Source: Neocallimastix lanati (nom. inval.)
Taxonomy: Eukaryota; Neocallimastigomycota; Neocallimastigomycetes; Neocallimastigales; Neocallimastigaceae
Direction: 5' to 3'
Assembly: GCA_016946835.1 (NCBI GenBank)
Contig: JACVTC010000430.1
Location: forward strand, 1 to 29,498
DNA: 29,498 nt
This document shows positions 1,641 through 29,075 of the stretch, piece after piece. The notes beneath the pieces are model-generated. The model was not told the DNA's origin. It did no database searches and saw only the letters and a program-made list of their open reading frames with translations. Made by a program: the position numbers and the translations under genes. Each line of letters opens with the position of its first letter. The stretch's first letter is position 1.

Positions 1641-2007
1641 ATTGATTACATCATTATTACCTCTGGTGAATAATGAATTTCAGTCACTGAAAGCCGGAGG
1701 TAGGTCGTGACGGTAAAGCGACATTAAAATATATAGTTTTAATATTAATTTTTGAGGTTTAGTATATACCCTTTGTTAGTAGCTTTTGTCAGTTATTTTT
1801 TAGTTGTAAGGTATACGAGCGAAATTTTGAAATTACCTTAAATAATCCCATCAATATTCAACATAAGTCCATTTAATGAAAATTAACGTTATTTCAACAA
1901 TTATAAAAATAATACTTTTGGAAATTCAACTTTTCCTTTTGACAGTCTAATTAAAATACTTAAAGAAATTAAAAAATTATTTTACAATAATTAGTTTCAA
2001 TACAACA
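1641..2007 (+). other. structured untranslated leader of gypsy relic 1
   Basis: This lies between repeat E1 and the gag start. It holds consecutive short hairpins: 1652-1658 with 1669-1675 (CATTATT/AATAATG), 1678-1684 with 1686-1692 (TTTCAGT/ACTGAAA), and a GTCG...CGAC pair near 1705-1722. The segment 1690-1722 is unusually GC-rich for this window. A TGG at 1664 could start a primer-binding site, but its distance from any credible LTR end makes that weak. Confidence 0.35.
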
Positions 2008-2350
2008 ATGGAGGAAGATGACTTTTTAAATGCCAGTTCTACCAATGAAGATGGTTTCGCTGGAGATCGTCGCTACTTTAAAGAATTTTTAAACAAGATG
2101 AATCTAATCTTCATGCTTCAGCCTGACAGATTCACCAATGATCCAACGAAAGTTGCATATATTATTCCCAGACCTTATGGTTCTTCTATGATTTCGGCTG
2201 CGACTTTAATTCGAAAACAATGACTCATGCCTAAATAATTATCAAGAATTTACCGCCATATTTAATGCAATATTTTGCAACTTTGATTCAACTTTTATTG
2301 CCAATCAGAAACTGAAAACAGTAAAGCAAAAACGAATTGGAGAAATAGCA
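2008..2350 (+). pseudogene. Ty3/gypsy Gag relic (capsid N-terminal part)
   Basis: Gag forms the virus-like particle of LTR retrotransposons. A true ATG at 2008 opens MEEDDFLNASS, and about 30 residues later comes KMNLIFMLQPDRF, closely matching KMNLIFMIHPDRI in relic D (20243). The first frame stops at TGA 2221-2223. The homologous protein continues in a second frame from about 2219 (NYQEF, then DSTFIANQKLKTVKQKR), so there is a frameshift. At about 2350 the capsid homology stops and reverse transcriptase begins in the same frame. The capsid C-terminus, zinc knuckle and protease are therefore deleted. It is not functional. Confidence 0.85.
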
Positions 2351-3040
2351 AATCTACCCTTTAACCGAAAAGGAATCTACTCACTCAAGGAATATATAGA
2401 CGAAATACTATCAAAAAGATTCATTAGAAAAACAAAATTCACGACTTTTTTCTTTGTACTTAATAAGAATGATATATTAAAATGGTTGTTGACTACCGAC
2501 ATCTGAACTATATGAAAATTCGTGATTCTTACCCGTTGCCATTAATCATTGACATGATTGAACACCTAGCCAAAGGAAAAGTCTTCTCAAAATTGATCTT
2601 CGATCAGCCTATAATCTTGTTGGAATAAAAGAGAAAGACAAATACAAAACAGCTTTTACAAGTAAATATGGCCGTTATGAATATTTAGTCATGCCTTTCG
2701 GCTTAAAGAACGCTTCTGCTGTATTTCAATACTTTATCAACGACATTCTTGAAGGCATTCTCGGAAAATTCGCCTTTTGTTACATTTATGATTTTATATT
2801 TTTCTCCCCTGACTTAGACACAAATTATGAACATCTTATTGAAATTTTCTCAAGACTTAGAAAAGCCGGTTTGTATGCTAAACTTGAGAAATGTAAATTC
2901 TGCGCTCCTTATTTGGATTTCCTTGGACACAGAATTTCCTCTGAATGTATCCTTATGGACCCTAAAAGCTTTCTTCTATTCTTGAATGGCCTGCCCCGAC
3001 AGATAAAAACAACTTCAATCTTTCTAAGGGCGTTCTAACT
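2350..3040 (+). pseudogene. Ty3/gypsy reverse transcriptase relic
   Basis: This is the RT domain of Pol, which copies element RNA into cDNA. Three frames carry it in order: about 2350-2506 (SLKEYIDEIL, RFIRK), about 2482-2590 (VVDYRHLN, SYPLPLI), and about 2589-3038 (KIDLRSAYNL, YGRYEYLVMPFGLKNA, LEKCKF, FLGHRIS). The first catalytic Asp (KIDL) is present. The YLDD box reads CYIYDFIFFS, so the first Asp of the pair is Tyr and the enzyme would be dead even without the frameshifts near 2482 and 2590. The order RT, RNase H, integrase identifies Ty3/gypsy rather than copia. Confidence 0.9.
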
Positions 3041-3690
3041 ACAATGGACACTTTATTCCTGGATTTGCGGCTCTAACACATCCTTTTCATTCATTTTTGA
3101 AGAAAAATAAGAAATTCTTTTAGACATCCGAAACTCAAAAGGTATTTGACGAATTAAAATCCAAATTCTCTTCTGCTCCAGTACTTGCATACCCTAACCA
3201 AGATCTCCCTTTCCTTCTCGAATCAGATGTTAGTAATTTCACTATTGTCGCATCCTCTTCCAAACTTCTCAAAAAGACAATAAAATTCATTCTATTACAT
3301 TCGCCTCAAAATCCCTTACTGCTGCTGAGAAAAACTACCCAGTTTATGATAAAGAACTTTTAGCAATTGTTGAAGCCTTAGAACAATGAAGACACTTTTT
3401 GAAAGGAACTTCAGTACCTTTCACCATTTTCTCTGACCATTGTAATCTTATATACCAAAAGAAACCTAAGAAAATGTCTCAAAGGCTAGTTCGGTGGGCT
3501 ATTTTCTTATCAGAATTTCACTTCAAAATCTCCTATCATGCAGGATCTATTAATGGTAAACCTGATGCTCTTTCTCGAAGAACTGATTGTGCATCAAATA
3601 AAGAAAAACTCTTCTATGATATTCCTTTTAACGTACTTAAACCTGATAATTTTTGTGTTGCCGCTTCTATTGCCTCTTTTAAATGATCAA
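3037..3690 (+). pseudogene. Ty3/gypsy RNase H relic with RT connection
   Basis: RNase H degrades the RNA strand during reverse transcription. The frame from 3037 gives the connection (HFIPGFAALTHPF), an in-frame TAG at 3121, then KVFDELKSKFSSAPVLAYP and the first RNase H strand (LLESDVSNF). After a frameshift near 3285 it continues with SITFASKSLTAAEKNYP, YDKELLAIVEALEQ, FSDHCNL and KPDALSRR. The catalytic acids (ESD, DKE, SDH, PDALSRR) are kept. A TGA at 3387-3389 stands where the family has Trp (EEW-RHFL), which is a G-to-A type change. It is followed directly by integrase, but with another shift of frame at about 3686. Confidence 0.88.
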
Positions 3691-4062
3691 ATACTCCATG
3701 AATACAAGAAAGACAAATATTATAAAGAAATCTGAAAAAAAAAACTCAATTCTAAACAAAACTTTCCAAAATCTAATAAATTTTCTTTAAGCAATAACTT
3801 CTTACACTTCAATGGAAAGATCTATGTTCCCTTTAAATGTCGTTCTTCAGTATTGAATATTTGTCATAACTCCCAGTCTACTGGTTATTTTGGTTTCAAG
3901 AAAACTTTCTCTTTAATTAATAACGATTTTTGGTGGTCATCTATGTAAAAAGACAAAGATAAAAAAGAATAAATTAAATATTATGAAATTTGTTGTCGCT
4001 CAAAGGATTCAAGACACAAACCTTATGGATTTTTGAAACCTCTCGAAATTCCACGACTGTAA
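3690..4062 (+). pseudogene. Ty3/gypsy integrase N-terminal zinc-finger relic
   Basis: Integrase inserts the cDNA. One frame, with stops at 3733, 3946 and 3970, gives FNGKIYVPFKCRSSVL, CHNSQSTGYFGFKKTFSL, NDFWWSSM, then EICCRSKDSRHKPYGFL and KPLEIP. This is the HHCC finger and the linker to the catalytic core. The second His of the finger is Tyr (GYFG for GHFG) and the first Cys is Tyr (KYYEIC), both explained by single transitions. Homology ends at 4062. The catalytic core that should follow may be the piece at 7249, separated by the MULE and repeat E2. Confidence 0.85.
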
Positions 4063-4838: not shown

Positions 4839-6018
4839 TTATATAAAGAAGGTTTTTTGTAAAACAATTTTTTTTAAGTAATTGTTAAAAGATTCTGAAG
4901 CATTATTTGTTATTTGGTTTATATCGTTATAATAATTCCAATATTGAATATCATATTTATATAAATAAGTCTTATTAAAATATTCCAAAAAAATTAAAAA
5001 ATTGAAATAATTATATATTTGACATATAATTTTAATATAATTATAAATATCAAATATATATTCAGGATTTATAAAAGGAAAATTTGTAATAGCTTTATAT
5101 AACAAATAAATTTTATGATTATTTTCAACTTCATTATAACATAATTTATTTTTTTGAACTTCTAACGATCTTTTATAAAGCCATACACAATATTTAATAG
5201 TAATATTATGAAATATTTTAATGAAAGCATTGGATATACTTTTTTCAAAATCACAACGCAAAATTTTTGGTGTAACTATAATATTATTATTATATTTACT
5301 TTCATTCTTTTTTAATTTTTCAAATAACAATTCATAGGTTGCTTGTTCTTTATTATTTAATATAGATAGTGATGTAGTATAAAAACTATTTATTTCTGGA
5401 GCAAATACTCTTGATATAAACACTTGATAACCAAATATTGGTGTAATATAAAATGTACCATCAGCAAACATATTTTCCTTGTATTTTATAAACAATTCCG
5501 TTTGGAATGGGGAATAATGATTGAAAAATTATAATATTAGAATTTTTGCGTGTCATAAAATTTTCATCTCTTTCGTTTATATAATATTCAGATTTATCTG
5601 GAATTTCATTAAATTTTGATATATCAGTAGGTAGTTGTTTTTTAATATACCTTGATATTTGGGATTTGATTAAATTATATTCAGGGCATATCAATCCAAT
5701 TTCTTCAGATATTTCATTATATATATGTTTTGGATTTATATCAAATGGGATTGAGGTTTTTCTAATTTCATTTTTCATTTTATGTTTTACTATTGATACA
5801 GATGCATCATATTCTTTTCCTGGATGAGTATGTTTGTTTTCATATTTTATTACTTTATTATTATCATTTAGAATAATGTAAGATTTACATTTTTTAACTG
5901 TTTTATATTTAGTACATTTGAATATTTTTGTATTATTCGTTATATACCATAAATTAAATTTATATTTTCTATTTAAAATGATTTGGTTTTTTTCTTTATT
6001 AGTTTCACTTATTTCCAA
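4839..6018 (-). pseudogene. FLYWCH zinc-finger MULE transposase, broken by a 1-base frameshift
   Basis: Transposase of a Mutator-like element. The first frame (6018 to 5461, 185 codons) carries a FLYWCH-like finger with ligands C35, C44, H63 and H65 (HTHPG). The second frame (5495 to 4839) carries the MULE core: MFADGTF with catalytic Asp 12, ILRCDFE with Asp 82, and the tail TNNASESFNNYLKK typical of the family. The two frames meet at GGGG on the plus strand (5509-5512). Taking one base out of this run would join them, so a single insertion, an assembly error or programmed frameshifting could explain the break. The first frame has no in-frame ATG upstream (it opens after a stop with ...DDQLEISET). 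The His expected after the Cys in the C-x-x-H motif is not seen. Confidence 0.82.
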
Positions 6019-8049: not shown

Positions 8050-8605
8050 ATGGTAAAATTTCAATATACCAAATAATAAATATACGAATACTAAAATAAT
8101 TTGATACCTCTCTATTCGGGTTATACTAAGAAAAGTTTTACTATTTACTAATAATTCTAATTCAAAACCCAAGTAATATAACACAACACTATTTACTCTA
8201 TCCGTTAATAAGAGGTTGAGTTTACACTAAATATTTATTATATATTAATTTAATTATTAATTTTTAATTAATAATATAATATTTTGTTAATACAAATTAC
8301 GTTAATAATAACACTAGTGCATTACAGTTACAGGTACAATAATATTTGTATATATAAAATAAATGAATGATTGGGTAAATTATTTAATTAAATTAATTTA
8401 CTTATCATTAACTAAACTATATAAAACTATATAAATAAATATAAAGCAAATTTTAAAAATAAAATAAAATTTAATGTATAATTACTGTACGAAACTTAAA
8501 AAAATATTTTATTTGATTAGTCGGAACTTGCTAACTGTTTATCGATACATTACGTAACTATAAGGTTATTATTGGATAGATATTATTTTACTATGTATCT
8601 GTTAC
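8050..8605 (-). mobile_element. LTR of family B, copy B1
   Basis: This aligns along its length with B2 (23834-24385) and B3 (26377-26934). Shared blocks include CCTCTCTATTCG, TTACAGTTACAGGTACAA, and near the right end GATAC(A/G)TTACGTAA and CTATGTATCTGTTACA. Its length of 556 bp fits B2 and B3. Its orientation is taken from element B, whose coding remnant is on the minus strand. Flanks AATAA and TTGGT do not match, so no target duplication supports it. Confidence 0.65.
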
Positions 8606-8639
8606 ATTGGTAATTGATAAATTATAAAATTATAAAATC

Positions 8640-10330: not shown

Positions 10331-11165
10331 AAATTTGATGATCGCTTCCAAACAGAAATTGCTAATTCCTCGGCAAAACAGGAATTGTTAAACATATCAT
10401 GGTTTGAGATAGTTTATAGACTATGGAAAAAGAATGGTAAATCTGATGTCCTCTCAAGAGTAGAGACAGAGAAGACAAATAGTGAGGATTTTGATAATAA
10501 TAGACCTTTAATACCTGATCATGTCGCAGGATTTAAAAAAACAATAATTCAATTTAAAAACGATTCAAAGTGAGTAGGTCATTTGAAAATAGATAAAACA
10601 ATAGCTTTGATTACCATATATTTCTACAGAAAAAATAGGAGTAAGAATATATTAGGCAATGTTAAAGCCTGCAAATTTTGCGCTACTCGTAAAAATAACA
10701 GTTATAAAGAATATGATACATCTGTTAAGATACCAATATCCTAATATCTGATTTAACCTGGTAAGAGGTTCATCTAGAATTTATAAGGGACTAACCAGTG
10801 AAAATGAAGATCAGAAAAGAGTATGGATTTTTAAGAAAAACTAAAAGGATATGTTGTATCTTAGTATGTTTGATGAATTATCCAAAATGATATACGTTTC
10901 AAGTTTATTGCTAACGCAATCGAGGAGAATGTTTTCTTAAGGGACGTATATAGGTTGTATGTGTAATAAAGGAAACTTTAAACATATCATAGAGACCTCA
11001 TAAACAAGATACATTGGCAATATGGACAAAAGTTGCACATATTATTACCAGAAGCGAGGTAAAGAATGTTTGACAAAACATGGATGAAGAAAATTAAGAT
11101 GTGTTACATTTTTATAAGTTGTCTATCAGTAAGATCGGACCATTTAAGGCTATTTTTTGATATCT
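10331..11165 (+). pseudogene. Ty3/gypsy RNase H-integrase relic, heavily mutated
   Basis: This covers the end of RNase H and most of integrase from a different gypsy family than relic 1. RNase H shows WFEIVYRLWKKNGKSDVLSR, where the last catalytic Asp is kept. After a TGA at 10571 the integrase finger reads VGHLKIDKTIALI and NVKACKFCATRKN, keeping the second His and both Cys. Core remnants are SMDF, DELSKMI and FLRDVYRLYV, spread over two frames with many stops. The C-terminal GPF domain is visible at 11098-11160 (FYKLSISKIGPFKAIF). The catalytic D-D-E triad cannot be traced. Repeat F2 starts within about 10 bases, in the place where a 3' LTR would be. Confidence 0.75.
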
Positions 11166-12198: not shown

Positions 12199-12734
12199 TG
12201 TAAAGAATAATAATTAATTTTTATTAAAATAATAAATAATTATTAATCTTTATTAAATAAAATAATAATTATTTAATAAAATTTATTAACTTTATTACAA
12301 AATATTTTTAATATAAAATTATTATTAATAATTTAAAATTAATATTGTAAAATTATTATTCTTTATCATTGTATTAATTAATAATATTAAAATAATTAAA
12401 CATTAATATTTTTTATATTTGTTAAAATTCATTTGATAATTAAATTTTAAGTTTTAATTTAAATAATTGTTACATTAATATAATTTTAAACAAATCTAAT
12501 ATAAATTATAGAATTATAATTTAGAAATAATTATAAAAATTATATTAAATCGTAATGTAACAAATCAAATGAAAAAAGAATAAGTAATATTTAAAAAATT
12601 AATTAAAATAAAACAATGCCATGTATAATTGACATTGTTTAAATAAAACAAATGTTAATTGAAGTTTTCTGATTGGAAAATATCGGTTTTTATTCAATTA
12701 ACATATGATCAATTTTATTAATAATTGATCATTA

Positions 12735-12791
12735 AACTTTTTAGGTTTTTCTCCCAAATCTTTTCCTAAAAAGTTATTCATTAAGATTTGG
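12735..12791 (+). promoter_or_regulatory. LTR pseudoknot motif, copy J
   Basis: Helix 1: AACTTTTTA (12735-12743) with TAAAAAGTT (12767-12775), 9 perfect pairs. Its loop contains CCAAATCTT (12754-12762), which pairs with AAGATTTGG downstream (12783-12791), 9 perfect pairs, giving an H-type topology. The linkers are GGTTTTTCTC and TTCC. Both helices differ in sequence from the other copies while staying paired. Confidence 0.7.
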
Positions 12792-12799
12792 AACTTTAC

Positions 12800-12839
12800 T
12801 ATAAATAATTCTTGATTTTCTTTATTTTGAAAATCAAGA
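12800..12839 (+). promoter_or_regulatory. TATA box and conserved CTTGA hairpin, LTR J
   Basis: TATAAATA at 12800-12807 is followed at once by a 10-bp stem TCTTGATTTT/AAAATCAAGA (12810-12819 with 12830-12839), then GTTATTATTATAAG. The same order occurs in LTRs K, H, A1, A2 and A3. Confidence 0.6.
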
Positions 12840-13101
12840 GTTATTATTATAAGAATATAATTATAATAATAAACAAAATAAATTTTTAATTTTTTAAAAA
12901 TAACAAAAATCTTAATAAAAATTATTTTTAATAAAAATTATTTTAATAAAAATTTTATTTGAAATAATCTCTTATAATAAACTCCTCCTCTATTTTAAGT
13001 TTCGTTAAGTATTTTCTTTTTTTTTTTAATTTCTCGATTAATATTAGTATTAATTGTAGAAAAGAATTAAATTTAATTAAGTTTAAATTTAATTCTTTAC
13101 A

Positions 13102-14099: not shown

Positions 14100-14561
14100 T
14101 GTAAAGAATTATAATTATTTTTCAAAATAATTATTATTCTTTATTAAAAAATTAATATTTAAAGTTTATTATTTTATAAAATTTTATGAATAATTTTATT
14201 AATTATGTCACATAGTAATTATTAATTAATATTAATATTTTAAAATTTATTTATATTAAATTAAATTATCAATAATTAATATATTAAATTATAATAATGA
14301 ATTATTGTATTAAAATAATGATAAATTCTATTTAATTAAGAAAAATTAAATTGTATTAAAATGATAATTTTATTTAATCAAGAAATAATTAAATTATATT
14401 ATTTCTTGGACTTTTAATTAAGAAAATTAAAAGAATTAATTATTTAATTATACTTGTGATTAAATATTAATAAAATTAATATATAATTAGTTAATAAGTT
14501 TTCTCCCTTATTCGGGTTTTCTTATTAACTAAAAATTGATGTAATTAAACATCAATCGAAA

Positions 14562-14620
14562 TCTATCTAGTTTTTTCTTCTAATCTTTTTCTAGATAGAA
14601 ATAATTTTCCAAGATTAGAA
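14562..14620 (+). promoter_or_regulatory. LTR pseudoknot motif, copy K
   Basis: Helix 1: TCTATCTA (14562-14569) with TAGATAGA (14592-14599). Helix 2: TTCTAATCTT in the loop (14578-14587) with AAGATTAGAA (14611-14620), 10 perfect pairs. Linkers are GTTTTTTC and TTTC. This is one of the two cleanest copies. Confidence 0.75.
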
Positions 14621-14630
14621 ATCAAATTAA

Positions 14631-14671
14631 TATAAATAGGACTCTTGATTCTTCTAAAAATAATCAAGAGT
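14631..14671 (+). promoter_or_regulatory. TATA box and conserved CTTGA hairpin, LTR K
   Basis: TATAAATAGG (14631-14640) abuts a perfect 10-bp stem ACTCTTGATT (14641-14650) with AATCAAGAGT (14662-14671). AATTATTATAAG follows. This is the likely basal promoter of the element. Confidence 0.6.
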
Positions 14672-14952
14672 AATTATTATAAGAAATTATAATAATTAAC
14701 ACAAATATTTTAAAATTACTTTTAATAAAAAATTTTTATAATAAAATATTTTCTAAAATACTATTAACCTTTGACTTTTAGTGTTGTTTATTATAATCTT
14801 ATAATAAACTCTAAGTTTAAATATTCTCGTTTTCAATATTTTAAATTATATTTTTTAATTTTATTTCAATTAATAATATTTTTTATTATTAATTGTAGAA
14901 AGAATTAATTATTAATATAATTTAATATTTTTAATTAATTCTTTACACATAA

Positions 14953-15491
14953 CTGATACAATTAATTTAAAAAGTATCATAAAATATGGGAAAAGCAAGA
15001 GGGAATTAATCAAGAAATATCGTATTTATGAAATAGTATAATAATTATTATATATTTATATAATACACTCAAATTATTATTATTTTAGAATATAATGTTC
15101 ATTTTATTATATTTATTTATTAAAATTATTCACTTTATTATATTTATTTATTAAAATAATTATTCACTATTATTCATTCTCAATTAATACGTTTCAATAA
15201 AAATAAAAACACAACATTTTTTTTTAATTAAAACTTCCTAATTTTTATCTTATTATTCTCTATATTATTATTATTTAAAATTTGTACTTTTTACATAATT
15301 AATTATATTATATATATTTTTATAATAAACTTATATTAATAATAAAATAATAAAATAATTTTATAATATTATATCTTATTAAATATTAATTTTAACTTAT
15401 TTAGAAAATATTAATAATAAAATTATTTACAATAATATTTAAAATAATAATTATATCATTTTACATTCTTATTAAATATCTCGTATCATAA
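14953..15491. other. AT-rich stretch, possible LTR remnant
   Basis: No gene. GGGAAAAGCAAGAGGG at about 14988-15003 resembles a polypurine tract. The right edge ...CTCGTATCATAA would, without LTR C1, run straight into TGGTACAAGATC (16333 on), i.e. an LTR end, a short spacer and a PBS-like sequence. This is inference only. Confidence 0.3.
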
Positions 15492-16328
15492 TGTTATGGT
15501 TCGGGTTTTATTAGAATTTTTATTTAATTATTTATTTTTAATATTTTTCTGTCTACATTTTAATTATTGAAAAACTTCACTTATTTATACTTTTTGAAAA
15601 AAAATAAATATGTAAAGCCTTTCTACATTTTATTATCATATTTAAAAAAAAATAATTTACTATTACTAATTAATTAAAATTTTATATTAATTTAAATTAA
15701 CTAATTCATAAGTATTTTTATTTTAATAAATTTTGTTTATATAATTTTATATTATTTTTCATATACTAAAACTAAATTATTTAATATATACGAAAAGAAA
15801 CAAACAAAATTTAAAAAGATTTTACAGAAAAATAAAATTATTTTAATCAAGAATGTTAATATAATATTCTTATATTTTATATAAAATAAATTTAAAAACT
15901 ATAATATATTTAATATTTATTATTAATCAATTAAGATTTGATTTTATTTGTGGGGAATAAAAATATTAAATAATCAATTTAAAAAATAAAATAAAATACT
16001 AAAAAGAATACAAGTTTAATATTGATACAATATAATAATAATATAATAATATATTTGAAAATAAAAATAAAATATTAATATTGATAATAAACACTTTAAT
16101 AAAATAATAAAATTTAAGGTTAAATTATAGATATTGATATTAATAATAAAAATATAGAATTATTGATAATATTTTAGAAACTTTTAATAAAAATAAAAAA
16201 AAATATATTTAGAAAATATTTTAGTATAGAAAATATAGTAAAGTAATATTAATTAAAGAATAATATAATGGATTCTAAAGTAAGTTGAAATTCTAATTAA
16301 TAATCCATTATATGTTCGTTCTTTACCA
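15492..16328 (+). mobile_element. LTR C1
   Basis: It starts TGTTATGGTTCGGG and ends GTTCGTTCTTTACCA, with ATAA on both sides (15488-15491 and 16329-16332). C2 is a near-identical direct repeat (a handful of differences in about 840 bases by eye), and C3 is a more diverged inverted copy. Near the 3' end there is a 12-bp hairpin, 16263-16274 with 16302-16313 (TAATGGATT/AATCCATTA core). No ORF. The base after each ATAA is T, so a 5-bp duplication ATAAT with the LTR starting at G is equally possible. Confidence 0.7.
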
Positions 16329-17183
16329 ATAATGGTACAAGATCTGAAGATTTTATTAATAAAATAATATATTCTAATAATAAGGAAAAATTTAAAATAA
16401 TATTCTCTAATTCTAAACCTAAATTAATTAATAAACTACTCTAATTTTAGTCTAAACTATCCTAATGTAAAAGAATCTAAACTAAGTTAAAATAACTTAA
16501 ACTAATATCTTAATCTAAACTATTCTAATCTAAACTAAACAATTTCTCTAAATCTATTACTATTTCTATAAAATGTTTAATACAACTAATCTATTACTAA
16601 ACTAATTTTATACTATACTTATCTTAATATTATACACTAAACACAAAAAACTATTAATTAAACACTTTTAAAACATTAAATTTAGAAAAAAACTATTTAA
16701 TAAATTTTAATTTATTTTAAACTATTTAATTTATTATTTAACTTTTAGAAAATATTAAAAAAATAATATAATAATAAAGTCGTAAGAAAAAAGGGAGAGA
16801 ACAAAAGTATTGTGTTACTTTGTTCTTTTTTATACTAATAAAATATTTATTTGATTGGATTAAAAATAAAAATAAAAAAAATTAATAATAAAAATTTAAT
16901 AATAAAAATTTAATAATAAAAATATAATAATAAAAATATAATAAACTTAAATTTTCTAAATTATTAAAATATTATATAAAAATTTACAATATTAAATAAT
17001 GTAATTAATACATGATTTTTTAATACATCTAATTATTTTTATTTAACTTTATAATATTCTATAACTAATATTTTAATATTCAATTTTTTTATTATTTATT
17101 TATAATTGTTAATGATATTTTTTACTTTAATATTTTCTTTAAATAGTTTAATTTTTCTTTATTTAATTGTACCGTAACAATAA
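16329..17183 (+). other. non-coding segment between LTRs C1 and C2
   Basis: It begins ATAATGGTACAAGATCTG, which has the form of a spacer plus primer-binding site. Around 16440-16620 there are many CTAAACTA-type degenerate repeats (TCTAAACTA, ACTAATC). A polypurine run AAAAAAGGGAGAGAA (about 16786-16800) leads into an imperfect hairpin GAACAAAAGTA/TACTTTGTTC (about 16798-16825). GTACCGTAACA ends at 17179. The order PBS-like, polypurine, TG...CA could be the skeleton of an element with all coding sequence lost. No ORF is present. Confidence 0.35.
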
Positions 17184-18025
17184 TGTTATGGTTCGAGTTT
17201 TATTAGAAATTTTATTAATTATTTATTTTTAATATTTTTCTGTCTACATTTTAATTATTGAAAAACTTCACTTATTTATACTTTTTGAAAAAAAAAATAA
17301 ATATGTAAAGCCTTTCTACATTTTATTATCATATTTAAAAAAAAAATAATTTACTATTATTAATTAATTAAAATTTTATATTAATTTAAATTAACTAATT
17401 CATAAGTATTTTTATTTTAATAAATTTTGTTTATATAATTTTATATTATTTTTCATATACTAAAACTAAATTATTTAATATATACGAAAAGAAACAAACA
17501 AAATTTAAAAAGATTTTACAGAAAAATAAAATTATTTTAATCAAGAATGTTAATATAATATTCTTATATTTTATATAAAATAAATTTAAAAACTATAATA
17601 TATTTAATATTTATTATTAATCAATTAAGATTTGATTTTATTTGTGGGGAATAAAAATATTAAATAATCAATTTAAAAAATAAAATAAAATACTAAAAAG
17701 AATACAAGTTTAATATTGATACAATATAATAATAATATAATAATATATTTGAAAATAAAAATAAAATATTAATATTGATAATAAACACTTTAATAAAATA
17801 ATAAAATTTAAGGTTAAATTATAGATATTGATATTAATAATAAAAATATAGAATTATTGATAATATTTTAGAAACTTTTAATAAAAATATAAAAAAAAAA
17901 TATATTTAGAAAATATTTTAGTATAGAAAATATAGTAAAGTAATATTAATTAAAGAATAATATAATGGATTCTAAAGAAAGTTGAAATTCTAATTAATAA
18001 TCCATTATATGTTCGTTCTTTACCA
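17184..18025 (+). mobile_element. LTR C2
   Basis: Direct repeat of C1 with the same ends (TGTTATGG...CTTTACCA) and ATAA on both sides (17180-17183, 18026-18029). Its right flank continues directly into the terminus of LTR H (TGTAAGAAACTC at 18030), so C2 sits exactly against the end of another LTR. It has the same 3'-terminal hairpin as C1. Confidence 0.7.
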
Positions 18026-18282
18026 ATAATGTAAGAAACTCTAATAAAAAGAAATTTTTTTATAAGAGTTTATTTTTTATATTGATTGAGTTTATTATTA
18101 AAAAAAAAATAAAGAAAAATACTTATATTTAAATAGACGAAAATTAGAAAAAGTAGAAGACTCGTATATAAAAATAAGTTTTTAAAACACAAAATTTTAT
18201 TAAAAAAAATTTTTAAACTTTAAATTTTAGGTTATTATTATTTTTAATATTTATCTTTATTAATATTTTTAATAATAATAAC

Positions 18283-18310
18283 TCTTGATTTCTGAAAAAA
18301 CAGAAATCAA
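18283..18310 (-). promoter_or_regulatory. conserved CTTGA hairpin, LTR H
   Basis: On the minus strand TTGATTTCTG...CAGAAATCAAGAGTTATTATTATT forms a 10-bp stem. Compared with J (TTTTC/GAAAA inner stem) the inner pairs have changed on both sides. The upstream sequence AAAGTATAAAATAACG supplies a TATA-like box. Confidence 0.55.
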
Positions 18311-18493
18311 TCGTTATTTTATACTTTTTTATTTATTAATTAATCTTATTTTATATTTATTTATTATTATTATTTTTTTTTTTATCATGTGTCTGTTTAA
18401 TTAATTAATTATTATTATTTATTTTTCATGTGTTTATTTAATTAATAATTATTTAATATAATATATTAATTATTTCTTAATTAAGCTATTGTT

Positions 18494-18546
18494 TGCTAGT
18501 CAGCTGTTGTATCTTCAGGAAAAGACTAGCAGAAAAACCTGAAGAT
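18494..18546 (-). promoter_or_regulatory. LTR pseudoknot motif, copy H
   Basis: In plus coordinates, helix 1 is ATCTTCA (18511-18517) with TGAAGAT (18540-18546). Helix 2 is GACTAGCA in the loop (18524-18531) with TGCTAGTC (18494-18501), 8 pairs. The linker reads GGTTTTTC on the minus strand, as in the other copies. Both helices have entirely different sequences from K and A but keep full pairing. Confidence 0.72.
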
Positions 18547-18600
18547 TTTCTTAATTGTATTAAATTAGAACGAATTATTTCAAAGAAATTTATTATTTAA

Positions 18601-18770
18601 TTTAATTTAATTATTATTTAATATTATTGTGAAAATAATTTTAGAATATTAAATATTAATTTTAATTTATTTATTATTTAATATTATTGTGAAAATAATT
18701 TTAGAATATTAAATATTAATTTTAATTTATTTATTATTTAATATTATTGTGGAAATTATTTAGAAGAATT
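18601..18770. repeat. 60-bp tandem repeat, about 2.8 copies
   Basis: Units start at 18601, 18661 and 18721. The first two are nearly identical and include TTATTATTTAATATTATTG, then TGAAAATAATTTTAGAA. The third decays after its first half. It lies in the U3 part of LTR H. Confidence 0.9.
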
Positions 18771-18954
18771 TTAAATTTTAAACATAATTGTATTTGTGAA
18801 AATTCTATTATTATTTTTTAATATTTAATATTATTATACTTACGTATTTTAATTTTTTAATTAATAAAATTTATATTTAGATTAATTTGTAATTAATAAA
18901 ATTTATATTTAGACTAAGAAATATAGAAAATATTTCTATATTTCTTACAAATAA

Positions 18955-20242: not shown

Positions 20243-20925
20243 ATGGAAGAAAACAATTTTGCAAACGCAACCTAAAAAGATGATTTTGACGAAGACAGAT
20301 GCTATCTTATGGGATTCTTAGCTAAAATGAATTTGATCTTCATGATTCACCCTGATAGAATCAATAATGACGAAACAAAAGTAAACTACGTTATTTCTAG
20401 GGTGTATGACAATGCTATGAATTGGGCAGCTTCACTTATGAAGAATCAGGATCCATGCTTGTTAAATTACGAAGCCTTCGTAGAAAGAATGAAATCTGTA
20501 TATGGGAGTTATGACTCAACATTCGTTGCGAATCAAAAACTCAGAACTACAAGGCAAAAACGGTTAGGCGACATTAGAAGCTATATACTTGAATTCAATT
20601 CTTATAAAGACGAGTCATCATAGAATAAAGAAGCTAAAATGGATGCGTTTCTTGTTGGTTTAAATGATCAAATTGCTATAAGAATTCTGGAAATGTTCCC
20701 TGGTCTAAGATCTTTTATTGCTATGCGAACTATAGCTTCCAGGATAGAGGTCGTCTATCGGCCCACAGACAATTTACAAATAATCAAAAACAATCAAACA
20801 ATAACCATAATAACAACAATTCTAATAAGAATAGATTGAATTTTAATAAAAAAGATTCGAATTCTTAACATTATGGATGTTTATCCAAAGAAGAAAAAGA
20901 AAGAAGAAGAGAAAAAAGCTTTTAA
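20243..20925 (+). pseudogene. Ty3/gypsy Gag relic of element D
   Basis: The ATG at 20243 (MEENNFANAT) matches the start of relic 1 gag and is preferred over the later ATG at 20309. Codon 11 is TAA (20273-20275), probably from CAA. The same frame then runs CYLMGFLAKMNLIFMI, MNWAASLMKNQDP, NYEAFVERMKSVYGSYDS, NQKLRTTRQKRLGDI, a TAG at 20621, and MDAFLVGLNDQIAIRIL. After a TGA at 20837 the frame resumes with the lysine-rich MDVYPKKKKKEEEKKAF, the segment that normally precedes the zinc knuckle. The knuckle itself, protease and RT are deleted, and RNase H follows in the same frame. Confidence 0.82.
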
Positions 20926-21193
20926 AACAGCCTTTGTTGAGTGTAGACACCTACTTTTAGGCAGTAAGTTTCCAACCCAGGTATACTCTGATCACAGGAA
21001 TTTACTTTTCGCCAGTAAACCACAATTACTTACTCAAAGTCAAGATCGTTGTCAAGAATTCCTCTCAGCCTTTGAATTTACCATTTTCTATAGACCAGTG
21101 ATATCAAATGGTAAAGCCGACCAACTCTCCCGTAGGGTTGACCATGAGGTACTCGTTAGTCAGAACCTAGATGAATCTCCTATAAGGATTTGA
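20926..21193 (+). pseudogene. RNase H C-terminal part fused to Gag in element D
   Basis: The open frame 20873-21193 passes from Gag (KKEEEKKAF) directly into RNase H: CRHLLLGSKFPTQVYSDHRNL, RCQEFLSAFEFTIFYRP, NGKADQLSRRVDHEV. The catalytic Asp of YSDH and of KADQLSRR are kept. The N-terminal half with the first Asp and the Glu is missing. Cys stands where Trp is usual in EWRHLL. The in-frame join removes about 2 kb of ordinary pol and is a clean internal deletion, such as arises by template switching during reverse transcription. Confidence 0.82.
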
Positions 21194-21299
21194 CAACTCT
21201 TCAGACTTCGCTTGTTTAATCACGTACCAATAGTCTTTCTTTGTAGACGATACAAAACAGGGTAAATGTAAGTGAACTTTGTCCAAGATATACCTGCCA

Positions 21300-21519
21300 A
21301 ATTTGACTCCAAGGACAAAACTATTATATACAATTAGTTTCTTGATGATGAGGTTATCTTAAAGAGGGAAAGGAAGGTTTATGTCGCACCTAAATTAAAA
21401 AACCATCATGAAATTAAACCATGATTATGAAATTGTTGTTAACCTAGGTATTAAAAGAAAATATAAATTAATACACCGCTGATATACCTGGCCAGACCTG
21501 AAAAAAGATGTAGTAGACT
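21300..21519 (+). pseudogene. integrase N-terminal finger relic, element D
   Basis: The frames are broken. Recognisable pieces are KRERKVYVAPKLKNHHEI near 21363-21415 and YTWPDLKKDVVDYV (21483-21524), the YYWPGMxKDVxxYV motif at the end of the HHCC finger. The two Cys and the catalytic core that should follow are absent, since sequence jumps at about 21520 to the end of the core. A TAA follows DYV. Confidence 0.65.
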
Positions 21520-22187
21520 ATGTATAATTTTGAAAGATTTGTGCCAAAATTAAGATACTCGGAACAAGTCTTACAGAAAAATAAGTGGTTAGCAGAATTT
21601 TGCTACAATAATTCGATTAATGCCTCTACTGGCAAAGCTCTCTTCCTAGCCATATATAACTACCAGCTATACGTCATTCCTCAAACCTCCTACTTGGTAA
21701 ATTTTCTTGGTGTGGCCATATTTATAGCTTTGCCCACAATCTAGCTAACTTGAAATATATATTATCTACTCAAAAGGAAAACTATTTAAGTACTAAGGTT
21801 AAGAAGTATGCCAACCCTCCGGTCCACTACCAACTTATTGATCTAGTCTGGTTGAAGCCTGCCAACTTCAATCCATTCCCGTTATATAAGCTACAAATTC
21901 GACGCTATGGTCCTTTTGAAATTACCGGAGTTTACCAGGAACAAAATAGCTTTTGCTTGGATTTTTCCGGTTCACCGTTCCTAAATATGTGTTCTAAATT
22001 GATGGTGAATTGGAACCTTACCAAAAAAGAAAATACAACCCTATGGAAATTAGTTACTTCTCTTGGAGGAATTTCTCACAACCCTACGTTAAATTCACCA
22101 ATAGAAATAATCAAGATTTACAGCTCAAGAAAACATAAGAGAAACTACCAATACTTGTCTACTAGAAAAGATAATTCCAAAGGTTGA
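21520..22187 (+). pseudogene. integrase C-terminal part with GPF domain, element D
   Basis: The first frame (21520-21744) gives QVLQKNKWLAEFCYNNSIN and ASTGKALFLAIYNYQ, the end of the integrase core. Another frame (to 22187) gives YLSTKVKKYANPPVHYQLID, VWLKPANF and RRYGPFEITGVYQ, the GPF/Y domain that contacts target DNA or host factors. A frameshift lies near 21744. The region that holds the D-D-E triad is deleted. After 22187 the protein end is visible in another frame up to WRR-stop at 22312. Confidence 0.75.
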
Positions 22188-22832: not shown

Positions 22833-23300
22833 ATGTATGTAAGAATCTATAATTATTTTTTAACATAATAAATATATTTTCTTTAGTTGTAATAATTATA
22901 TATTTATTTAATTATATAATATATATTCACTTAAATATTATTAATTATTTATTTAATTTAATTTTAAACATTCATTAATTTAATATATAAATAATAATAA
23001 TTTATTTAATTATACATTTATACATTTAATTATTAATTTATTAATATTTGTTTTTTCATTTAATTAGATTATAAATTTAAACATTATTATGTATTCTATT
23101 ATATATTTTATTATGTATTTTGTATTTTATAATGTATTCTGTATTTTGATAATTACAAAATTTTATATATATTGTTTTATTAATGTAATAAGATAATTTA
23201 CATTTTATGATCAAAATATCTTTTATTATTTTATTATTTTAATTTTCGATCATTAATTAAATTAGCTAATCAGTCAATTACGGTTTTTTCCAATAACCTT

Positions 23301-23352
23301 ATTAATTAAGTAAAACCAATCACTAAGAAGTGATTGGTTTTACTTAATTAAT
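23301..23352. promoter_or_regulatory. perfect 24-bp inverted repeat with 4-base loop in LTR A1
   Basis: Bases 23301-23324 are the exact reverse complement of 23329-23352, with loop AAGA. The half-sites contain TTAATTAAGTAAAACC. In A2 only the right arm is well kept, and J and K have shorter 11-bp hairpins at the same place. Confidence 0.75.
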
Positions 23353-23387
23353 GCGATGATCGAAATGGATAGAATATCGATCAAAAA

Positions 23388-23444
23388 CTTATCTAGGTTA
23401 TTTTGTCTAATCTTTTCCTAGATAAGAGATTTGTTAATATTAGA
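23388..23444 (+). promoter_or_regulatory. LTR pseudoknot motif, copy A1
   Basis: Helix 1: CTTATCTA (23388-23395) with TAGATAAG (23419-23426), perfect. Helix 2: TCTAATCTT (23406-23414) with AATATTAGA (23436-23444), one mismatch. Confidence 0.65.
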
Positions 23445-23833
23445 AAAAACATTTTGTTTTTAACCTAATTTTTAAAAAAAAAAATATAAATAAGGCTTTT
23501 GAGTTCTTTTTGAGAAATCAAGAATTATTACTATAACAATTATAATATAACAATTATAATATAATAATAATAATAATAAATATTTTATATTTCTAATTTA
23601 ATAAAGCTTGTTTTAATAAAACAAATTTAAAAAACAAAACAAATAAATATTTTTTTTCAAAAAATCTTGTGAATTTTAATATTAGTTTATTATAATAAAT
23701 TCTTCACCATTTTAAAAGATAAATATAATTATCTTTCTATTTCTCTCAATTTAATAATAATTTTTACTAAAGTTATTATTAATTTGTAGTTAATATTTTA
23801 ATTAAAATTAATTTTATAATTAAATTATTACAA

Positions 23834-24385
23834 TGTAAAACGTTTATTTAATATATATTAAAATAACAAATAATAAATAAGATAAATACTAAGATAACTT
23901 AACATCTCTCTATCAGAGTTATTATTTAAAAAATTATTTTTAATTATAATTAATTATTTTTGACACTTAAGAATATAGCGAAACATTATTTAACTCTACT
24001 CTTTAACAGTAACAGGACTTACATTAAGCTAATTTCTCTATTTAAAATAATTATTTTTATTTATTTAATATTTAATATTTGTTTTAACAATTTTTGTTAA
24101 TAGTAACTTTAACTCGTTACGGTTACAGGTACAATTATTTTTATACATGTAAATAAATGAATGACTGATAAATTATATAATTTAACATAATATACTAATC
24201 ATTTAATAAACTATCTATAATTTATAACTAATAATAAAATAAATTAAAAAATATAATAAAATTTAATTTACGAAATTAAGGAAAGAATTTTTTTATTAGC
24301 TAGAAATTACTAACTGTTTGTAGATACGTTACGTAATCAAGAGACTATCATAGGATAGGCTTCATGTTACTATGTATCTGTTACA
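23834..24385 (-). mobile_element. LTR B2 (3' LTR of element B)
   Basis: On the plus strand it reads TGTAAAACGTTTATTT...CTATGTATCTGTTACA, 552 bp. It aligns with B3 and B1. Its first four bases are shared with the A1 target duplication. On the minus strand it is preceded by CATTGGGAAAGGCCT, a polypurine-like sequence. Confidence 0.68.
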
Positions 24386-25538: not shown

Positions 25539-25553
25539 CCCTGAACCTTACCA
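25539..25553 (-). promoter_or_regulatory. primer-binding site of element B
   Basis: The minus strand reads TGGTAAGGTTCAGGG. If C3 and its duplicated TTAC are taken out, it directly follows the LTR B3 end (...CGTACCTTTTAC). TGG next to an LTR is the standard form. The matching tRNA was not identified. Confidence 0.55.
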
Positions 25554-25557
25554 GTAA

Positions 25558-26376
25558 TGGTAAAGAACGAACATATAATGGATTATTAATTAGAATTTCA
25601 ACTTATTTTAGAATCCATTATATTGTTTTTTACTTAATATTACTTTACTATATTTTCTATACTAAATTATTTTATAAATATAATTTTTTTTTATTAAAAG
25701 TTTCTAAAATATTATTAATAATTCTATATTTTTATTATTAATATCAATATCTATAATTTAACCTTAAATTTTATTATTTTATTAAAGTGTTTATTATCAA
25801 TTTTAATATTTTATTTTTATTTTCAAATATATTATTATATTATTATTATATTATATCAATATTAAAATTGTATTCTTTTTAGTATTTTATTTTATTATTA
25901 AATTGATTATTTAATATTTTTATTCCCCACAAATAAAATCAAATCTTAATTGATTAATAATAAATATATTAGAGTTTTTAAATTTATTTTATATAAAATA
26001 TAAGAATATTATATTAATATTCTTGATTAAAATAACTTTATTTTCTGTAAAATCTTTTTAAATTTTGTTTGTTTCTTTTCGTATATATTAAATAATTCAG
26101 TTTTAGTATATGAAAAATAATATAAAATTATATAATGAAAATTTATTAAAATAAAAATACTTATGAATTAGTTAATTTAAATTAATATAAAATTTTAATT
26201 AATTAGTAATAGTAAATTATTTTTTTAAAATATGATAATAAAATGTAGAAAGGCTTTACATATTTATTTTTTTCAAAAAGTATAAATAAGTGAAGTTTTT
26301 CAATAATTAAAATGTAGACAGAAAAAAAAATAAATAAATAATTAAATAAAATTCTAATAAAATCCGAACCATAACA
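25558..26376 (-). mobile_element. LTR C3, nested at the LTR/PBS junction of element B
   Basis: On the minus strand it reads TGTTATGGTTCGGA...GTTCGTTCTTTACCA, a diverged copy of C1 and C2 with the same terminal hairpin. GTAA flanks it on the plus strand (25554-25557, 26377-26380), and a 5-bp AGTAA reading is also possible. No ORF; the 71-codon minus frame inside it is not a gene. Confidence 0.72.
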
Positions 26377-26934
26377 GTAAAAGGTACGTTTATTATTAAC
26401 TAAAATAACGAATAACAATTAATTTTTAAAGGCTAAGATAATTTAACACCTCTCTATTCGAGTTGTTAATAATAAACACTATATTAATTATGCTATTAAC
26501 TAATTATTCTATAACACTAGAGTATAGCGCAGCACTTTATAACTTCTATCCGTTATTAGTTACTGGGCTTACACAGGGTAATATATATTTATTTATTAAT
26601 TAAAATTTTATTTATTAATATTAATATTTATTATAACAATATACTTTAATAGTAACGCTAGTGCGTTACAGTTACAAGTTCAATTATTATTTATAAATGT
26701 TAGTAAATTTATGATTGGTAAATAATTTAATTTACTTAGTTTACTAATCACAAAATAAAAATATACTTAACTAAGTATTTAACTATATAATTAACTATAA
26801 AATAATAAAATTTAATGTACGAAACAACTAAAAGATTTTATTTAATTAGCCAAAATTAATAACTGTTTAAAGATACGTTACGTAACCAAAGAACTATCAT
26901 TGGATAGGCTTAAAGTTACCATGTATCTATTACA
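26377..26934 (-). mobile_element. LTR B3 (5' LTR of element B)
   Basis: 558 bp, ending on the plus strand CATGTATCTATTACA, followed by CTAAA. It shares with B2 and B1 CCTCTCTATTCG, ATAGCGCAGCAC-like, GTTACAGTTACAAGTTCAA and AGATACGTTACGTAAC. Its left boundary is the C3 insertion. Confidence 0.68.
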
Positions 26935-27394
26935 CTAAAATGTGTGTAAGAATCTATAATTATTTGCTAACAAATAATTATATTTTCTTAGTTAAGTTAT
27001 TATAACTATAACTTTATTTAATTACATATAATATTTATTCATTAAATTTATTTAATTTAATTTTAAATATTCATTAATTTAACAAATTTTATTTAATTAA
27101 TTTTAAAAAATATATTAACAATATATTAATTTCTCTACTGTAACTAATGTATTCTGTATTGTATTCTGTATTTTATAATGTATTCTGTATTTAATTAACT
27201 ATTTAATTTTATATTTTTTATATAAGCATAAGTTATATGATCGAAATATCTTTTATTATTTTATTCTTTTATTTTCGATTATTAGATTAGATTGGAAAAT
27301 CGGTTAATTAAGATTTTTCCCAATTACATTTTAGAAGTAATCGGTTTTACTTAATTAATGCGATGATCGATATGGATAGAATATCGATCGAAAA

Positions 27395-27449
27395 CTTATC
27401 TAGGTTTTTCTATCTAATCTTTTCCTAGATAAGAGATTTGTTAAGATTA
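27395..27449 (+). promoter_or_regulatory. LTR pseudoknot motif, copy A2
   Basis: Helix 1: CTTATCTA (27395-27402) with TAGATAAG (27426-27433). Helix 2: TAATCTT within 27413-27421 with AAGATTA (27443-27449), 7 pairs. L1 begins GGTTTTTC and L2 ends TTCC. Confidence 0.7.
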
Positions 27450-27488
27450 TAAAACCCTTTCTTATTTAACCTTATTTTCATAAAAAAA

Positions 27489-27528
27489 TATAAAAACGGC
27501 TCTTGAGTTCTCTTTGAGAAATCAAGAG
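27489..27528 (+). promoter_or_regulatory. TATA box and nested CTTGA hairpin, LTR A2
   Basis: TATAAAAACGG is followed by CTCTTGA (27500-27506) with TCAAGAG (27522-27528), enclosing a second stem TTCTC/GAGAA (27508-27512 with 27516-27520). Then comes TTATTATTATAAG. A1 and A3 carry the same arrangement with G-U and sequence variants. Confidence 0.6.
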
Positions 27529-27777
27529 TTATTATTATAAGAAAAATAAAAAAAATATAATAATAAAAAACTCAATAAAATAATTATTAAACTTAATAAA
27601 ATTTAAAAATCTTTTTTAAAAAAATTTTATATATATACATCTTTTATACGTGTTCTCCTCAACTCTTATAATAAACTCGACTTTTAAGGTAAAATTCTCA
27701 ATTTATTAATATTTTAATTAATAAATTGAAGATAACAATTTTGTTATAAGAAATTATAATAAAATTGTTACAATGTG

Positions 27778-28653: not shown

Positions 28654-29075
28654 TGTAACAATTTTATTATAATTTCTTATAACAAAATTGTTATCTTCAA
28701 TTTATTAATAATAATATTAATAAATTGAGAAATTTACCTGAAGTGAGTTTATTATAAGAGTTAAGGAGAACACGTTATTATAAAAGATATATATATATAT
28801 AAATTTTTTTTTAAAAAAAAGATTTTTAAATTTTATTAAGTTTAGTAATTATTTTATTGAGTTCTTTATGATTATATTTTTCTTATAATAATAACTCTTG
28901 AGTTCTCTTTGAGAAATCAAAAGCCTTATTTATATTTTTTTATGAAAATAAGGTGAAATAAGAAAGGGTTTTCTAATCTTAACAAATCTCTTATCTAGGA
29001 AAAGATTAGATAGAAAAACCTAGATAAGTTTTCGATCGATATTCTATCCATAAAATATTAATATCGAAAGTTCAT
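28654..29075 (-). mobile_element. partial inverted LTR A3
   Basis: The minus strand is nearly identical to 27365-27772 of A2 (downstream half: hairpin, pseudoknot, TATA, hairpin, terminal TTGTTACA). It breaks off at about 29075, so the upstream half is missing and there is no target duplication. Confidence 0.75.
28972..29028 (-). promoter_or_regulatory. LTR pseudoknot motif, copy A3
   Basis: In plus coordinates, helix 1 is CTTATCTA (28990-28997) with TAGATAAG (29021-29028). Helix 2 is AAGATTAGA (29002-29010) with TCTAATCTT (28972-28980), 9 perfect pairs, better than in A2. Confidence 0.75.

Follow-up and report, generated by a model that had tools for sequence, protein, structure and literature searches.

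A covarying H-type pseudoknot in long terminal repeats of an anaerobic gut fungus and its possible role at the RNA 3ʹ end

Six pseudoknot copies and their long terminal repeats

The stretch of DNA analysed here (the window, 29,498 nt, 82% A+T) belongs to contig JACVTC010000430.1 of Neocallimastix lanati, and its host is a Neocallimastix-like anaerobic gut fungus. The window carries six copies, A to F, of a short motif for which an H-type pseudoknot in long terminal repeats (LTRs) had been predicted from the letters alone. Followed through the source assembly, the motif is well supported by sequence comparison as a selected RNA element with the design of an H-type pseudoknot, both of its crossing helices showing covariation from family to family.

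The six copies were read individually. In the 5ʹ half of the motif, the first strand of helix 1 (9-11 bp) is followed by UUUUU(U), a C, 0-2 bases and the first strand of helix 2; the 3ʹ half begins with UUUU(U), which leads into the second strand of helix 1, and 7-11 nt of linker then separate this from the second strand of helix 2. Helix 1 closes straight onto both U tracts in every window copy, and what had been described as fixed linkers is better seen as a pair of U tracts that face each other and are bounded by invariant G-C pairs. Copy A (12735-12791, plus strand) has helix 1 at 12735-12745/12765-12775, a U tract at 12746-12750 and helix 2 at 12754-12762/12783-12791. Copy B (14562-14620, plus strand) has helix 1 at 14562-14570/14591-14599, the 5ʹ U tract at 14571-14576, the C at 14577 and helix 2 at 14578-14587/14611-14620, and its 3ʹ U tract (14586-14590) contains the last two U of the first strand of helix 2. 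Both helices are exact in copies C (18494-18546) and F (28972-29028), which lie on the minus strand. On the plus strand, copy D (23388-23444) has drifted, with the U tract TTATTTTG and an interrupted helix 2 of 6 contiguous bp, and in copy E (27395-27449) helix 2 runs for 7 bp and then meets its one mismatch.

Helix 1 is present in 6/6 copies, as the original prediction held. Its length, put at 7-9 bp with exact complements, is really 11 bp in A, 9 bp in B and C and 10 bp in D, E and F: the GG that opens the loop and the CC that ends it are paired with each other and so lengthen the helix (copy B has a single G-C pair there). Helix 2 was likewise said to be complemented, which was correct for A (9 bp), B (10 bp), C (8 bp) and F (9 bp), all exact, but not for the interrupted D and E. 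The observation of one shared design is confirmed with small corrections of this kind. The loop ends GGTTTTTC..TTCC are replaced by GTTTTTTC..TTTC in B and by GGTTATTTTG in D. The word GGTTTTTC occurs five times in the window, compared with a mean of 0.80 in shuffled sequence. Copies D, E and F are closely related to one another, which leaves about four independent types in the window.

Four copies lie in solo LTRs of 828-995 bp with TGTA..TACA ends and exact 5-bp target site duplications: copy B in 14100-14947 (plus, CATAA), copy C in 18030-18949 (minus, TTATT), copy D in 22838-23832 (plus, ATGTA) and copy E in 26945-27772 (plus, ATGTG). In the control of this search, 46/400 random centres also matched, about the share of the window covered by these four LTRs, and the two were not separated. 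The same search for an LTR with a target site duplication found none around copies A and F. Elsewhere in the genome, same-strand knots spaced 5-6 kb apart recur. In one element read whole (L537, family A), the LTRs were identical across the 714 nt compared and enclosed a single open frame of 1347 amino acids on the knot strand, with reverse transcriptase, RNase H, integrase, protease and Ty3-capsid domains. L537 is a Ty3/gypsy-type LTR retrotransposon, and its LTRs and same-strand gag-pol frame place the knot in the LTR, on the coding strand. A frameshift pseudoknot was rejected since the knot lies outside gag-pol. Separately, L436-type knots were seen in same-strand pairs about 2.7 kb apart (C78:195693/198349, C223:1501218/1503989 and C434:43529/46289), which suggests short, perhaps non-autonomous LTR elements.

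The knot had been placed just upstream of a TATA box. A TATA-like box does lie downstream of the knot in A, B, D and E, whereas the distance from copy C to its box is about 160 nt. If transcription starts below this box, the RNA would have a single knot, located in the 3ʹ LTR and ahead of the poly(A) end, and it is on this basis that we infer a position in the RNA 3ʹ region. Just below the box we also observed a conserved CTTGA..TCAAG hairpin followed by AGTTATTATTA (window positions about 12811-12840, 14641-14670, 23500-23525 and 27500-27530); this feature occurs at 1425 places in the genome and possibly marks the start of the repeat region (R) of the LTR.

Genome-wide copies and covariation of the two helices

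The source assembly (199 Mb, 762 contigs) was searched with reversed patterns as controls. The core pattern AGGTTTTTC..TTTTCCT gave 1285 matches versus 4 for its reversal, the core in the form of copy B gave 351 versus 1, and the forms of L472 and L436 gave 50 and 62 matches, respectively, with 0 control matches for both. Exact cores thus exceed 1600 in total with controls nearly nil. A pattern barring the commonest third pair of helix 1 matched 167 times versus 0, and all but three of the matches listed carry C..G there instead. Among the matches listed from viral and prokaryote contigs, 0/325 distinct GGTTTTTC..TTCC contexts had a helix 1 of at least 8 bp and a helix 2 of at least 7 bp, thresholds passed by 4/4 exact anchors in the window.

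Two samples of places were read more closely. The first comprised the first 60 places listed of 2190 anchor matches; 36 of them had a helix 1 of at least 7 bp, and 29 had both helices according to a strict finder that admits only Watson-Crick pairs in helix 2. The seven failures in helix 2 were five cases of G·U pairs, a broken helix 2 (L398) and a place that is not the knot (L368). By eye, 37 knot loci were recognised, namely 35 of those 36 plus the mutated L396 and L397. The second sample used an independent downstream-word anchor with 1425 genome matches and 0 control matches, which also had 0 matches in both the viral and the prokaryote collections; places 61-100 of its listing were examined (n = 40). 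An anchor-free finder reported a knot at 36/40 of them, including L516 and L522, where its top match was a different stem and the knot, mutated in L522, was seen by eye. With three mutated knots recognised by eye alone (L520, L521 and L529), a knot, intact or mutated, was present at 39/40 places, and L501 had none. As a separate observation, L004, L006 and L116 in the viral contigs carry 13-bp hairpins with GG-UUUUUC..UUUU-CC tracts, no helix 2 and a T run after them, and are probably terminators.

To assess covariation, 16 family representatives were hand-chosen from 53 distinct cores (they collapse to 14 distinct strings), and pairs were counted on structure-column strings, because MAFFT, applied to the motif as a whole, aligned family A one column out of register. 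In the 16 families, the arms of helix 1 paired at 8.94 of 9 positions with their own partners and at 6.25 when swapped, and those of helix 2 at 6.88 and 5.99 of 7 positions; random reassignment of arms reached the observed sums in 0/20000 trials for helix 1 and 1/20000 for helix 2. In the 14 strings, 8/9 pairs of helix 1 and 4/7 pairs of helix 2 had changed on both sides, which bears out the earlier argument for selected structure from two-sided changes. Together these make 12/16 pairs, with 98.7% of cells paired, compared with shuffled means of 6.2 and 78.6%. For helix 2 alone, four two-sided pairs were reached by 1/500 shuffles and the remaining measures by 0. Its types include UCUAAUC/GAUUAGA, CCAAAUC/GAUUUGG, GCUAGUC/GACUAGC, GCUAGUC/GACUAGU, GCUAAUC/GGUUAGC and CAUAAUC/GAUUAUG. 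The original prediction had named beforehand what would speak against it: no excess covariation, or a helix 2 pairing no better than in shuffled sequence. Neither was seen. With its partner free within 37 nt downstream, helix 2 reached a pairing sum of 110/112 over the 16 families, which 0/2000 downstream shuffles attained. The covariation, which is not a structure determination, supports the two crossing helices expected of a triple-helix (telomerase-type) H pseudoknot. Nearest-neighbour energies of the helix-1 hairpin ranged from -7.7 to -12.9 and those of the helix-2 duplex from -7.8 to -13.0. Mismatched cells in the distinct cores were G·U in 12 cases and A·C in 3 (excluding L487, L505 and the helix-2 cells of cores scoring below 6), an excess that fits RNA of the knot strand.

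The covariation was controlled by shuffling and sliding, without a model of descent, and is not phylogenetic. As the shuffles ignore descent and the flank-based family tree gave no resolved branching, the number of independent events is not settled. In five families with an altered helix 2 (L377, L395, L427, L436 and L472), the end branches of the flanks were 0.62-1.03 changes per column long, indicating that the knot is preserved where its surroundings diverge. An explanation by chance, or by common ancestry without structural selection, would draw on three facts: copies are near-identical within a family, the flank tree lacks resolution, and at 82% A+T helices of A-T pairs are cheap. Against the empty result in 325 control contexts, the two-sided changes, the 2000 shuffles and the 1285 core matches versus 4, we regard this explanation as extremely improbable. 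We hold it very unlikely that the motif is a promoter feature at the DNA level, with inverted repeats that bind a factor or form a cruciform. That copies A, B, D and E sit ahead of a TATA-like box suits such a feature; crossing helices, the preference for G·U over A·C, the remote box of copy C and a helix 1 that, unlike a binding site, varies at eight of its nine pairs do not. A splice site was also considered, given a branch-like CTAAT, a pyrimidine tract and AG, and was rejected since the AG is absent in families A and C.

No family of Rfam 15 matched the window with a score that reached its gathering cut-off. Three weak matches fell below it, one of them on the palindrome 23306-23346 (E 1.8); another, to Alpha_RBS (10651-10752, minus strand, E 0.0021), is probably due to chance. 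A self-cleaving ribozyme was rejected, there being no Rfam match at gathering score and little conserved among the unpaired letters beyond the U tracts.

Other repeats share the window. Broken remnants of Ty3/gypsy-type gag-pol lie on the plus strand at 1951-3948 and 20276-22187, and a MULE-type (Mutator-like element) transposase lies in two overlapping frames at 4839-6018 on the minus strand, and its fragment 4839-5495 matches proteins from anaerobic gut fungi, Neocallimastix among them. A repeat about 860 bp long, which carries AATCCATTATATGTTCGTTCTTTACC at one end, is present in three copies (15488-16345, 17180-18042 and, inverted, about 25550-26390), two of which are 94-99% alike in the parts compared. 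A second dispersed family, of the ACTGTTT..TACGTTACGTAA.. type, occurs at 8283-8606, 24078-24385 and 26627-26934.

Facing U tracts, an upstream hairpin and a possible 3ʹ-end function

The first strand of helix 2 lies between the two U tracts, of 5-6 and 4-5 nt, and each tract adjoins an invariant G-C pair in 16/16 families. Their lengths were (5,4) in 13 families and (6,5) in three, shifting jointly in 16/16; over the 50/53 cores with a helix 2 of at least 6 bp, the lengths were (5,4) in 34, (6,5) in 14 and (5,5) in two. When the invariant C of the loop is aligned with the first G of helix 2, the loop strand UUCU runs parallel to the purine strand AAGA, and the two together are a code for the triples U·A-U, U·A-U, C+·G-C and U·A-U, that is, a parallel Hoogsteen match. 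This four-layer match is present in 13/16 families, 12 with UUCU/AAGA and L436 with UUCC/AAGG (6/6 copies read), as expected of the pyrimidine loop of a telomerase-type knot.

In the window, the genome sample and the 16 families we looked for a companion to the knot, a hairpin of the type of the element for nuclear expression (ENE), in which two U tracts form an internal loop within a stem. The descriptor matched the window twice, each time just upstream of a knot, with a mean of 0.03 and a maximum of 1 in shuffled windows. The two matches, each with a 12-bp lower stem and two U tracts, are the hairpin near copy A (12652-12704, plus strand; upper stem of 5 bp) and that near copy B (14487-14532, plus strand; upper stem CCC/GGG). 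A third, near copy E (27304-27358, plus strand), was seen by eye, as a bulge in the upper stem makes the strict descriptor miss it, and the hairpin was not found upstream of copy C. Where relatives of copy D have the U-loop hairpin, D itself has a perfect inverted repeat (23301-23352), as if one arm had been copied over the other. In the genome, the descriptor matched within 200 nt upstream of 23/37 knot loci versus 0/23 other anchor places. By family, a looser descriptor, which had no separate control, found the hairpin in 11/16, 1-36 nt from the knot, and three more (L358, L378 and L413, with mismatches near the loop) were recognised by eye, giving 14/16 overall. These hairpins sit in the unique 3ʹ region (U3) of the LTR, and their stem sequences vary among families yet remain paired. 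G-C pairs do lie beside their U tracts, partly because one or more G-C among the first pairs of the upper stem was itself a condition of the descriptor. The knot itself is not classed as an ENE, since the segment between its U tracts pairs downstream and forms no local upper-stem cap.

The original prediction had left a list of roles open, and the ENE-type hairpin upstream together with the facing U tracts narrows it toward protection of the 3ʹ end. The reading that we favour, to which we give an even chance, is that a triple-helix pseudoknot works with the neighbouring ENE to protect the RNA 3ʹ end. In this reading the motif is a selected RNA element in the U3 of the LTRs of many retrotransposon families. 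Its first loop, UUUUUCU, would lie in the major groove of helix 2 and run parallel to AAGA in a short triple helix like those of the telomerase and potexvirus pseudoknots. The two or three facing U/U layers left over, together with the adjacent ENE, would then grip adenosines of the poly(A) tail, and the 3ʹ end would be shielded from deadenylation and decay, as is reported of the Arabidopsis Evade ENE; this would raise RNA level and transposition. Triplex formation, tail binding and protection are each predicted here from sequence.

A telomerase-like triple-helix pseudoknot complete in itself, making no contact with the tail and acting as a stable plug, for example against 3ʹ-to-5ʹ decay or while reverse transcription proceeds close to the 3ʹ end, seems rather unlikely to us. 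The encoded AAGA or AAGG that matches the loop strand in 13/16 families suits such a plug, and the knot survives without an ENE in family C and L472. Family C, on the other hand, lacks both of the A's, and the U/U layers beside helix 1 lengthen jointly with no encoded A to fill them. Since the longer (6,5) tracts bring no encoded A, something else, most simply the poly(A) tail, may fill the remaining layers.

U3 of LTR elements serves in strand transfer, and location in U3 would suit a protein-binding signal for packaging, strand transfer or export, as would the fact that the main conserved unpaired letters are the U tracts, which Gag or a host U-binding protein might read. Such a signal predicts neither the paired tract lengths, nor the Hoogsteen match, nor the ENE neighbour, and we judge it unlikely.

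A bolder version of tail binding is a tentative idea, possible rather than probable: the knot would be a new kind of clamp at the RNA 3ʹ end, a pseudoknotted ENE, whose facing U tracts take tail adenosines between the encoded four-layer triplex and helix 1, so that knot and ENE form a double clamp on the same tail. If true, most of the families sampled would carry a modular tail lock inside the LTR, and thus at both ends of each new insertion.

Several points weigh against the favoured reading of a selected triple-helix knot working with an ENE. In the covariation analysis, further pair types numbered 22 compared with 17.4 in shuffles and were reached by 9/500 of these; in L413 and L422 the outermost position of helix 2 is mismatched, A against A; and the distinct cores hold 19 other mismatched cells. 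In L378, L436, L448 and L472, the nested minimum-energy fold is another hairpin than helix 1. The invariance of the U tracts and the bordering C is partly imposed, because the search patterns demanded both. The triplex match shrinks to three layers in L358 and L427 and to two in L395 (family C), and the C/G change of L436 is one event in which a Watson-Crick pair becomes U·G. For the hairpin, the missing control of the looser descriptor counts here as well, and in L395 and L472 no ENE-type hairpin was found within 220 nt upstream, indicating that knot and ENE are not inseparable.

Comparison with known triple-helix elements

Transposon ENEs are known and few have been tested. About 200 ENEs are on record, mostly from plants and fungi and mostly associated with LTR retrotransposons (Tycowski et al. 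2016, as cited in PMC12501189). A search of titles and abstracts found no such motif and no LTR pseudoknot of this kind, a weak negative given that most subscription papers lie outside its coverage. The single genome searched here has at least 16 families and more than 1600 exact cores, usually linked to an ENE-type hairpin, with covariants in both helices and one in a proposed triple layer. Such natural covariants make the escape of mobile elements from RNA decay testable with short RNAs, and the motif can serve as a seed for locating similar modules in other Neocallimastigomycota.

Among the nearest counterparts is the ENE of Evade, an Arabidopsis LTR retrotransposon. According to the sections of PMC12501189 covered here, it forms a triplex with A-repeat RNA and depends on its U tracts and on the G-C pairs next to them; when it is deleted, the RNA becomes less stable and the copy number falls. 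The hairpins upstream of our knots share with it a U-rich internal loop in a stem and G-C pairs by the U tracts, and Evade's lies near the RNA 3ʹ end; those same sections describe no pseudoknot for Evade.

In double ENEs, both pockets lie within one hairpin. The MALAT1 3ʹ-end triplex has nine U·A-U triples and one C+·G-C triple (part of PMC11411715), and the double ENE of rice TWIFB1 has a quintuple base motif in common with H-type knots (part of PMC11625349). As far as these parts go, both resemble our motif, as proposed, in their U·A-U triples (MALAT1 also in C+·G-C) and in a tail or A tract held in a U-rich loop, and differ in that their U-rich loop lies within a stem-loop.

The human telomerase RNA pseudoknot is likewise of H type, with a U-rich first loop and U·A-U triples in the major groove (as cited in PMC9262919); it belongs to another RNA with another function, and the likeness meant here is one of form. 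In potexviruses (pepino mosaic virus, PepMV, and bamboo mosaic virus, BaMV), a pseudoknot stabilised by UAU triples forms with the poly(A) tail (part of PMC9262919). It shares with the present motif, as proposed, U-rich hairpin motifs, an H-type fold near the 3ʹ end, UAU triples and a strongly conserved G-C pair by the loop. There the tail makes the second helix, whereas here an encoded strand does so; if the tail is held as well, the range of poly(A) clamps would reach beyond stem-loops to include pseudoknots whose second helix is encoded.
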